A program made the position numbers and the translations under genes. The notes beneath the pieces are model-generated. The model saw only the letters and a list, made by a program, of their open reading frames with translations. It did not search any database and had not been told where the DNA came from. Source: Streptomyces brevispora (GTDB lineage: Bacteria > Actinomycetota > Actinomycetes > Streptomycetales > Streptomycetaceae). Taken from it: a stretch of DNA of 64,000 nucleotides. Each line of letters begins with the position of its first letter. Within the stretch, counting starts at the first letter, position 1. Of this stretch, positions 56,513 through 59,403 are shown piece by piece. The stretch is from the NCBI RefSeq assembly GCF_007829885.1, contig NZ_VIWW01000001.1, positions 1,612,001 through 1,676,000 on the forward strand, read 5' to 3'.

Positions 56513-58825
56513 CTACGAGGGCCGCGCGCCCGGGGGTGCCGTACGGGTCCTCGGAGGCTCCTGGCGAGGCCTGAAGACCTCCATCAGCCTGTGCAGCCGG
56601 GGGGAGGCGGCCAGCTCCTCCAGGGTGACCGGGTGGCCCTCGGCGTCGGCGATGGGCAGCCGCCAGTTGGGGTACTCGTCCCAGGTGCCCGGCAGGTTCT
56701 GCGGGCGGCGGTCGCCGATCGTGTCGGGCAGCCAGACCCCGGTCATCCGGGCGGGGGTGCGCAGCAGGAAGCGGTGGACGGCGCGGACGGCCGCCTCCTC
56801 GTCACCGCCGCCCTCCGGGAGCACGCCGAGCCGTAAGAGCACGCGGAGCCACTCCACGGTGTCGGCGCGGGCCTCCATGCGCTCCTGGTCCAGCGGGCGG
56901 GCGAGCAGGCCGAGGCGGTGGCGCAGCGTCACGTGGTCGCCGGTCAGCCGGGCCGCGGTGGAGGGCAGATCGTGGGTGGTGGCGGTGGCCAGGCAGCCCT
57001 CGCGCCAGTCCTCGGGGGCCAGCGGGCGGCCGGTGCCCGACCAGTCCCGCTCGAACCAGAGCACGGAGGTGCCGAGGACGCCGCGGCGGGCGAGCGCCTC
57101 GCGGACGCCGGGTTCGACGGTGCCGAGGTCCTCCCCCATGACGACGGCGCCCGCCCGGTGGGCCTCCAGGACGAGGACGGCGAGCATCGCCTCGGCGTCG
57201 TGGCTGACATAGGTGCCCTCGGCGGGCGGGCGCCCCTCGGGCACCCACCAGAGCCGGAACAGGCCCATGACGTGGTCGATGCGCAGGGCGCCGGCCCGGC
57301 CGAGGATCCCGCGCAGCAGTCCGCGGTACGGGGCGTAGCCGGACGCGGCGAGGACGTCGGGGCGCCAGGGCGGCAGCCCCCAGTCCTGGCCCCGTGCGTT
57401 GAAGGCGTCCGGGGGTGCGCCGACGGACATGCCGTGCGCGAAGGCGTCCTGCTGGGCCCAGCTGTCGGCGCCGCCGGGGTGCACGCCGACGGCGAGGTCG
57501 TGGACGATCCCGACGGCCATCCCGGCGTCCCGGGCGGCGCGCTGGGCGTCGGCGAGCTGAGTGTCGGTCAGCCAGGCGAGCCGGCAGTGGAAGTCGATCC
57601 GGTCGAGCAGTGCGGCACGGGCGCGGGCGGTCTCCCTGGAGCGGGGATCGCGCAGTGCGGGCGGCCAGTTGTGCCAGTCGGAGCCGTGCACCTCGGCAAG
57701 GGCGCACCACAGGGCGTGGTCCTCCAGGGCCTGTCCCTGTTCGGCGAGGAAGTCGCAGTAGGCGGCGCGGCGACCGGGTGTGAGCGGGACCTCGACGAGG
57801 ATGGCGAGGGCCTGCCGCTTGAGCTCCCAGACGGCGTCGCGGTTGATCAGGGCGCCCTTGTCGAGGACGGCGTCGCTCAGCTCTCCGGCTCTGCGGCGCA
57901 GATCGTCCAGTGCGGCCCGGTCGGGCGCGTGCCCGTACTCCGGGACGGACTCGATGCGCAGGTGCACGGGGTCGGGGAAGCGCCGCGAGGACGGGCGGTA
58001 GGGCGACGGGTCGGTGGGGCTGCCCAGGACCGCGGCGTGCAGCGGATTGACCTGGACGAAGCCGGCGCCGAGGCTGCGCCCGGACCAGGAGGCGAGGTCG
58101 GCGAGGTCACCGAGGTCGCCCATGCCCCAGGAGCGGGCGGAGAGCAGCGAGTAGAGCTGCACGAGGAAGCCGTGGCTGCGGGAGGGCGGCTGCGGGACGC
58201 CGGCCGGGGCGACGACGAGCGTGCAGGACTCGACGGGCCGCTCCGGCGCCCGGACGGTCAGCCGGTGCACCCCAAGCGGTGGTTCGGCCCACCAGCCGGG
58301 CACGGGCGCACCGCCCACCGGGCCGTCCGCCGGACCTGGTGCACCGTTCGCCAAGCCGTTCGCCGGGCCGGGCGCGCCGTTCGCCAAGCCGTTCGCCGGG
58401 CCGGGCGCGCCGTTCGCCAAGCCGTTCGCCGGGCCGGGCGCGCCGTTCGCCAAGCCGTTCGCCGGGCCGGGCGCGCCGGAAACGGCCGGATCCGTATCCC
58501 CGGCCGGGGTCCGCATCCGGGCCGGCGGAGCCGATCCGGCCTCCTCGGGCCGGACGGTCAGCTCCGTGCCGGGCGGCAGCGCGGTCAGGGCCCGGGGCAG
58601 CGGCTCCCCCGTCCACACCACCAGGGTGGGCGGGAGCAGCCGGGAGCCGGCCGCGGACTCGGCGGCGGCGAGCGCCTTCCGTAGCGCCTCGGGTGTGGCG
58701 GCGTCGACACCGAGCGCGGCGAGCACCGCGACGACCGTGCCGTCGGGGACGGGCACCGTGACGTCGGCGGACGGGGAGTAGGAGGTGGCGACGCCGTGCA
58801 GCGCGGCAAGCCGGGACAAGCCCAT
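56513..58825 (-). CDS. malQ: 4-alpha-glucanotransferase (amylomaltase, GH77) with an internal repeat expansion
   Basis: A 770-residue GH77 enzyme. Nucleophile D517 (RIDHVMG), acid/base E565 (GEDLG) and stabiliser D619 (TTHDLPS) are all present. It transfers alpha-1,4-glucan chains between maltodextrins in the cytoplasm. It has an extra N-terminal domain compared with plant-type enzymes, with a low-complexity insert at about 117-166 made of GAPGPANGLAN 11-residue repeats. The insert is absent or different in relatives and lies outside the catalytic barrel. CAGGAG precedes ATG 58825, which directly follows the stop of the small ORF at 58826 (TGAATG), so it is translationally coupled. Confidence 0.93.
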   Translation of the reverse strand: MGLSRLAALHGVATSYSPSADVTVPVPDGTVVAVLAALGVDAATPEALRKALAAAESAAGSRLLPPTLVVWTGEPLPRALTALPPGTELTVRPEEAGSAPPARMRTPAGDTDPAVSGAPGPANGLANGAPGPANGLANGAPGPANGLANGAPGPANGLANGAPGPADGPVGGAPVPGWWAEPPLGVHRLTVRAPERPVESCTLVVAPAGVPQPPSRSHGFLVQLYSLLSARSWGMGDLGDLADLASWSGRSLGAGFVQVNPLHAAVLGSPTDPSPYRPSSRRFPDPVHLRIESVPEYGHAPDRAALDDLRRRAGELSDAVLDKGALINRDAVWELKRQALAILVEVPLTPGRRAAYCDFLAEQGQALEDHALWCALAEVHGSDWHNWPPALRDPRSRETARARAALLDRIDFHCRLAWLTDTQLADAQRAARDAGMAVGIVHDLAVGVHPGGADSWAQQDAFAHGMSVGAPPDAFNARGQDWGLPPWRPDVLAASGYAPYRGLLRGILGRAGALRIDHVMGLFRLWWVPEGRPPAEGTYVSHDAEAMLAVLVLEAHRAGAVVMGEDLGTVEPGVREALARRGVLGTSVLWFERDWSGTGRPLAPEDWREGCLATATTHDLPSTAARLTGDHVTLRHRLGLLARPLDQERMEARADTVEWLRVLLRLGVLPEGGGDEEAAVRAVHRFLLRTPARMTGVWLPDTIGDRRPQNLPGTWDEYPNWRLPIADAEGHPVTLEELAASPRLHRLMEVFRPRQEPPRTRTAPPGARPS
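58323..58478. repeat. 33-bp minisatellite inside malQ
   Basis: Three identical 33-bp units (58356-58388, 58389-58421, 58422-58454), a partial fourth (to 58478) and a diverged copy in front (58323-58355). All keep the malQ frame and encode GAPGPANGLAN. Complete identity between copies indicates recent expansion, so copy number may vary between strains. Confidence 0.93.
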
Positions 58826-59092
58826 TCAGACTCCTGGGGACTCCATGCCCCAAGCGCTGCCGGAAGAAGCCGGCTCGCTGGTCAGCGGGGCGGGAACGGC
58901 GAGCGGGGGCTCACTGGTCAGGGGTGTGGCGTCGGCGAGCGGGGGCTCACTGGTCAGAGGTATGCCGTCGGCCGACGGCGCTTCGCTGGTGAGCGGGCCG
59001 GGGACGGTGGCCGGGCATGCGCTGATCAGCGGGGCGGGAACCGGCACCTGTTCGGTCAGGGCGGAGAGCAGGAGCTGCGCGGCAGCGGGCAT
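58826..59092 (-). CDS. 88-residue repeat peptide ORF directly before malQ
   Basis: ATG 59092 is preceded by AGGAGG with a 5-nt gap, one of the best ribosome-binding sites in the region. The protein begins MPAAAQLLLSALTEQVPVPA and then has five 12-residue units with core P-L-T-S-E (about 20-31, 32-43, 44-55, 56-67, 68-79). The stop abuts the malQ ATG (TGAATG). No domain is recognised, there is no signal peptide, and it is Pro/Ser/Ala-rich. It may be a regulatory or coupling ORF rather than a stable protein. The DNA also has an open frame on the other strand because of the repeats. Confidence 0.55.
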   Translation of the reverse strand: MPAAAQLLLSALTEQVPVPAPLISACPATVPGPLTSEAPSADGIPLTSEPPLADATPLTSEPPLAVPAPLTSEPASSGSAWGMESPGV

Positions 59093-59403
59093 GGTGGCCT
59101 CCTGGCCGTGGAGAGCAGGACACAGCAGACCTACCCAGCGGACGCATCCGCAGACGTAGGCGTTACGACAACGAGTTCAACGTGCTCTGGGTCACAATCC
59201 GTTCCCTGGAGGCCGGTTCCCCGTAAGACATCCGTCAATTTCGGCCATTCGGCGTCATCTTTCGCGTGCCGCGACGACCACCGAGCGCGCCCGACCCCAT
59301 CCGCCACATCGGGCATTTGCACCACAACGACCACCCGCATTGACACCCTCGCGCGCGGGTGGTGGGCTCTGGGCTCACTGGTGGGAGCGAAGGGAGAACG
59401 GGC
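59093..59403. other. Intergenic region between the malQ operon and the GH84-like gene
   Basis: 311 bp between divergent genes. It holds the AGGAGG of the 58826-59092 ORF, a TTGACA at 59340-59345 with only a weak -10 (TGGGCT) at 17 bp, and an inverted repeat ACCACCCGC/GCGGGTGGT (59330-59338 and 59355-59363) that brackets the TTGACA. No gene is seen. The repeat could be an operator for the glycosidase gene. Confidence 0.5.

Follow-up and report, generated by a model that had tools for sequence, protein, structure and literature searches.

The small ORF that directly precedes malQ in the window (the whole stretch of DNA that was analysed, 64,000 nucleotides) encodes a member of a genuine family of small proteins found in Streptomyces and its close relatives; the status of this group as a new family without known relatives is well supported. 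The reading of its product that we favour, and regard as fairly probable, is that of a multivalent linear-motif protein that would be expressed under stress or during development, would act in trans and, in most species, would be co-expressed with malQ. The first-pass annotation of this DNA had described an 88-codon ORF with an AGGAGG and a stop codon touching the malQ ATG, and this arrangement was confirmed at 59092..58826 on the minus strand, where the ORF opens with an ATG and its TGA abuts the malQ ATG at 58825 (Table 1). On the same strand it is followed by malQ, then SMP, a LysR regulator and allantoicase, and a gene for a GH84 N-acetylglucosaminidase lies nearby on the opposite strand.

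Table 1. Positions of the small ORF, its repeat units, the associated signals and the neighbouring genes in the window
Feature	Positions	Strand	Remarks
Small-protein ORF, 88 aa	58826..59092	-	First gene of the ORF-malQ-SMP unit; conserved family; coding selection
AGGAGG, Shine-Dalgarno of the ORF	59098..59103	-	
AGGAG, Shine-Dalgarno of malQ	58831..58835	-	Within the last ORF codons
N-terminal segment MPAAAQLLLSALTE	59051..59092	-	Family consensus MAAxAxLLLxALSK; sole predicted helix, residues 3-12
Five 12-residue units	58874..59032	-	PLISA (degenerate) at residue 21; exact PLTSE at 33, 45, 57 and 69
malQ, 4-alpha-glucanotransferase (GH77), 770 aa	56513..58825	-	Usual second gene of the unit
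SMP, 76 aa	56262..56492	-	Third gene; by eye, signal peptide and one TM segment; conserved DDGDDPG motif
Promoter-like GTCTG-N14-GGGTAGG (GNNT-N15-GGGTAG)	59130..59155	-	SigB-type; -10 GGGTAG at 59136..59131

Conservation and coding character of the small ORF

In a 30-row alignment of the family 18 columns are invariant; the N-terminus is conserved (consensus in Table 1), the linker varies, and three motifs are nearly invariant. These three PLTSEPPL-type motifs, spaced about 12 residues apart, form the core of the family, whose members are approximately 60-125 aa long and rich in Pro, Ala, Leu, Ser, Thr and Glu. A profile of the ORF matches in 363 of the 392 genomes sampled from the genus (E<=0.001), with S. 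griseus, S. globisporus, S. noursei, S. atratus and S. microflavus among the named species that carry it; the first-pass annotation had named, as part of what would refute its reading, the lack of an ORF ahead of malQ in close relatives, and the ORF is instead widespread in the genus. The 29 genomes without a match, 23 of which have malQ, indicate that the ORF is not essential.

Beyond the genus the phyletic pattern narrows rapidly. In a first search of 61 relatives, strong matches occurred within the genus alone, the best match outside it having an E of 0.0028. A family-level sample yielded matches in 51 of 150 genomes at E<=0.01. The genus itself accounts for 37 of these and seven further genera for 11 (E<=2.8e-6), each of the 11 having malQ a short way downstream in the same orientation; the remaining three matches are weak (E 0.006-0.008). 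At the order level 171 of 197 genomes matched, the sole one outside the genus being weak (E 4e-4), and a profile search of the sequence surrounding an earlier weak match in that genome gave no match. The 13 matches among 296 genomes at the phylum level comprise nine from the genus and four weak ones, and no plasmid match was found for the ORF.

The family has no match at the curated cut-offs of Pfam or NCBIfam and none in the PDB at E<=1; below threshold, four Pfam families and one NCBIfam family are each touched by a single one of the 30 members (best E 0.008, 0.078). The strings LTSEPP and PLTSEPPL are absent from the open-access full-text literature searched in one library, where the occurrences of PLTSE are unrelated by title. 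Within the range SCO2648-SCO2650 the open-access literature mentions only SCO2649, as a 4-alpha-glucanotransferase, and the ORF is not described among the matches listed for an open-access search on small ORFs and malQ in Streptomyces.

The pattern of substitutions was analysed in a set of 146 ORFs, with window duplicates, re-fetched loci, ORFs containing N and ORFs shorter than 60 aa dropped. The frame of the ORF has a pN/pS of 0.29 across 350 close gap-free pairs, compared with 0.47, 1.2, 1.9, 2.4 and 2.5 in the other five frames, and the substitutions at codon positions 1, 2 and 3 of close pairs stand at 2164:1593:5691, placing 60% of them (5691/9448) at third positions. Since the ORF frame has the lowest pN/pS of the six, antisense or other-frame coding was rejected as the source of this pattern. 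The three-motif core has a pN/pS of 0.206. When all usable pairs (10,097) are taken together, the median pN/pS of the whole ORF is 0.565 (dN/dS 0.446) and that of the N-terminal 14 codons 0.576; by these comparisons the core is tightly held and the rest of the protein weakly constrained. With the start picked in each case by the best SD match, all 142 distinct ORFs show an SD-like match of 4-7 bases ahead of a GTG (73) or an ATG (69). Judged by its pattern of change, the ORF is translated. The earlier suggestion of an unrecognised small repeat protein is thus borne out by the recurring SD and start, the coding-type substitutions, the genus-wide conservation and the lack of a known family.

The same data bear on the notion that the functional entity is the nucleic acid itself, acting as a direct-repeat binding site or a structured RNA or persisting as a neutral minisatellite, with the ORF being incidental. 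The 36-bp direct repeats, which TRF independently reported as an array, in three rows scoring 109, 123 and 131 that fall within 58872-58990, would fit such an element, as would the serine codons of the LTSE units, which are AGC or AGT in every tabulated unit and never TCN. The latter feature is accounted for by common descent, because a transition from AGY to TCN requires two changes. The excess of third-position substitutions, the lower pN/pS of the ORF frame relative to every other frame, the variation at the wobble bases of the repeat codons and the lack of an Rfam match all argue against it, making this the least credible of the explanations considered, with a negligible chance of being correct.

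Linkage to malQ and the downstream SMP gene

malQ is found downstream of the ORF in 140 of the 142 distinct loci. When duplicates are included the linkage holds in 148 of 155 loci, the seven exceptions being two malQ-less genomes counted twice each and three weak matches that lack LTSE. With malQ starts picked by script, the 142 distinct loci yielded 126 resolved and 14 unresolved junctions, the other two having no malQ downstream. The stop and start codons abut in 88 of the resolved junctions and share a base in 10 (98/126), while the remaining 28 have gaps of 1-50 nt (22) or more than 50 nt (six), up to 277 nt. This geometry, along with the location of the malQ SD inside the last ORF codons in the window, is what might be expected of a leader ORF that mainly sets the translation of malQ, with terminating ribosomes re-initiating at the malQ start codon that abuts or overlaps the stop and, possibly, modulation through pausing at the Glu-Pro-Pro motifs. 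Several observations render this scenario unlikely. The 28 junctions with gaps imply that coupling to malQ is not universal. The region around the malQ start shows no unusual RNA fold (z +0.91; 169 of 200 shuffles at least as stable), which together with the absence of an Rfam match also led to the rejection of a structured RNA. Most importantly, each gene occurs without the other, and the ORF has a low pN/pS within closely related pairs of malQ-less genomes.

A PF02446 (GH77) match is missing in 20 of the 392 genus genomes, several of which are fragmented assemblies. If both searches are taken as covering one set of 392 genomes, ORF and malQ are both present in 349, malQ alone in 23, the ORF alone in 14 and neither in six. 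Ten of the ORF-only loci were inspected (L206-L213, L047 and L190) and have no Ns and no malQ match at E<=1e-3; in the other four genomes (G123, G243, G265 and G284) the contig ends within 0.9 kb downstream of the ORF, so that malQ could be missed. The genomes with neither match (G074, G126, G163, G171, G176 and G192) consist of 640-1,770 contigs in five cases and of 120 in the sixth. Among the 23 genomes with malQ alone, the region upstream of malQ was inspected in G014, G018 and G035, and in G028 the start of malQ sits at the edge of its contig.

The ORFs of the malQ-less loci retain the hallmarks of the family. Closely related malQ-less pairs have pN/pS values of 0.10 (19 synonymous and 5 nonsynonymous changes), 0.14 (8 and 3) and 0.19 (2 and 1), the last of which rests on three changes in total; other pairs in the largest malQ-less group range from 0.34 to 0.52, and for L213, the malQ-less copy that diverges most, comparisons with the other copies give 0.56-1.01. 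A clear SD is present in nine of the ten and none is seen at the assumed start of L213, and GGGTA with GNNT occurs 40-52 nt before the assumed start in all ten. Judged by the nearest ORF relatives among the fetched loci, at least three independent losses of malQ appear likely, given that two malQ-less ORFs have malQ-bearing nearest relatives (85% and 72% identity) and five group together. malQ has thus probably been lost several times while the ORF stayed. Because the ORF outlives malQ, the proposal of a leader ORF fails as a complete explanation. Its retention without malQ, and the purifying selection in closely related malQ-less pairs, indicate that tuning of malQ is at most secondary and cannot be its only role; the ORF probably has its own job, separate from malQ. 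Where the two genes abut, the synthesis of MalQ may nonetheless depend on the ORF.

SMP, for which no confident Pfam family was found, follows malQ in all 68 named loci over 11 kb, and in all ten inspected malQ-less loci it lies downstream of the ORF at a distance of 67 to 1,192 nt, with another possible ORF between the two in L208. Of 80 genomes selected chiefly because they lack the ORF, 66 also have SMP, on which ground SMP was rejected as a partner dependent on the ORF. All seven order-level relatives tested possess SMP, which is beside malQ in five of them, the other two being without a malQ match. From its presence in ORF-less genomes and its position in these five relatives, malQ-SMP is, on this comparative evidence, the older pair, to which the ORF was added upstream and from which malQ can drop out in between.

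Repeat motifs and the proposed mode of action of the product

The first-pass annotation had counted five PLTSE units in the ORF. All five keep an exact 12-residue period, although strictly four of them are exact and the first is degenerate (Table 1), and the last three align with the near-invariant core of the family. The number of LTSE units in the 146 ORFs is three in 93, four in 48 and two in five. MalQ has a separate 33-bp minisatellite at 58295-58478, with GPANGLANGAP units, located in the linker between its N-domain and the GH77 domain; this linker is hypervariable in length and sequence, and the minisatellite was not seen among the 15 relatives examined. The idea that the ORF repeat is a fresh second expansion beside this minisatellite had to be abandoned, in that the conserved three-motif core is old, the linker of MalQ is itself hypervariable, and relatives have the ORF without the minisatellite. 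The MalQ minisatellite is unrelated to the ORF repeat.

The product could also be read as a RiPP-like precursor, in which an N-terminal leader would precede three or four core repeats of 12 residues with abundant Thr, Ser and Glu; both the leader-linker-repeat layout and the varying repeat number (two to four LTSE units) are compatible with this. The neighbours to which Pfam gives an identity, over the interval from about 53.9 to 63.0 kb, are, however, allantoicase, LysR, MalQ, GH84 and HNH, with no modifying enzyme among them; SMP lies in the same interval without a confident family. Moreover, no RiPP model in Pfam or NCBIfam matches, and the near-core distribution in the genus and the fixed place by malQ and SMP would be unlike a biosynthetic cluster. 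A RiPP-like origin is hence even harder to sustain than a leader ORF and appears highly improbable.

The AF2 model of the ORF product has low confidence (mean pLDDT 60, pTM 0.14) and contains one short helix, in keeping with disorder, and the protein is predicted to be disordered. The combination of a disordered protein with a strictly conserved part consisting of a short motif, present thrice at near-fixed spacing, suggests multivalent docking. The favoured multivalent linear-motif protein would accordingly consist of a short helix at the N-terminus and, after a variable linker, three PLTSEPPL-type motifs that are nearly identical, and would be encoded by the first gene of an operon-like ORF-malQ-SMP unit downstream of a SigB-type promoter-like element. 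It would be made under the control of the SigB family, in osmotic stress or development, and the repeat pattern suggests that its three identical motifs might dock in trans on a partner. The overlap with malQ in most species would then serve co-expression by coupled translation, rather than a dedicated leader-peptide switch.

The upstream promoter-like element and comparison with known systems

The pentamer GGGTA is found 15-110 nt before the start in 136 of 140 distinct upstream regions, which are related sequences, and in 8.9% of shuffled sequence. The base after it is G in 99%, and at the GNNT positions 15 nt upstream the G and the T are each conserved in 96%. Within the 64-kb window the full pattern occurs once (59155..59130), and less strict versions are present at a few further sites. 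The classical SigB-type consensus is GNNT-N14-16-GGGTAY, with C or T as its final base, whereas the -10 of the ORF element ends in G; on account of this difference and of the looser patterns elsewhere in the window, the assignment of a sigma factor is unproven. The S. coelicolor SigB-family promoters, as presented in PMC8346170, include osmotic-stress members that use GNNT and some -10 boxes that read GGGTAG, with three such boxes among the rows shown of Table 2. With these promoters the ORF element shares the GNNT -35, the GGGTA -10 and a similar spacing.

A second conserved upstream block, TGTGACC-N-ACGTTG, is located at 59178-59196 (minus strand), in the interval that separates the ORF from the divergent GH84 gene, and is present in many of 35 aligned regions; it might be an operator or else the promoter of the GH84 gene.

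Upstream of malQ genes that lack the ORF (n=22), an element similar to the SigB-type one is present within 260 nt in six cases and absent in 16; the six include three of the five genomes of genus g20, with the element at 69-70 nt. The presence of such an element ahead of malQ in ORF-less genomes makes it possible that the promoter is older than the ORF. A more specific and correspondingly more tentative version of our favoured reading, which we would regard as a doubtful but workable proposal, is that of a near-core, disordered, SigB-controlled adaptor of stress or development, whose gene, with its three LTSEPPL docking motifs, might have been inserted between an older promoter and malQ-SMP.

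Streptomyces is a main source of antibiotics, and about nine of ten sampled species carry this protein, which has no Pfam or NCBIfam entry. The functions of malQ and the ORF are already separated in nature, and by virtue of this separability a simple deletion of the ORF would reveal its role.

In translationally coupled leader ORFs the stop codon abuts or overlaps the downstream start and the downstream SD lies inside the ORF. The present ORF resembles them in its abutting stop and start and in the malQ SD within it, but differs in that its coupling is not family-wide and in that it outlives the downstream gene, malQ. This serves as a caution that an ORF abutting a downstream start need not be a leader peptide. 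Another parallel might be TrpM (SCO2038) of S. coelicolor, the deletion of which, according to PMC5036795, affected metabolism, growth and differentiation, with PepA reported as a partner. Both are small ORFs in a Streptomyces metabolic operon with a protein that acts in trans, or, in the case of our ORF, would do so. The likeness is drawn without any claim of relationship: TrpM belongs to the trp locus and has PepA as its reported partner, whereas the product of the present ORF is built from repeats and is encoded beside malQ.
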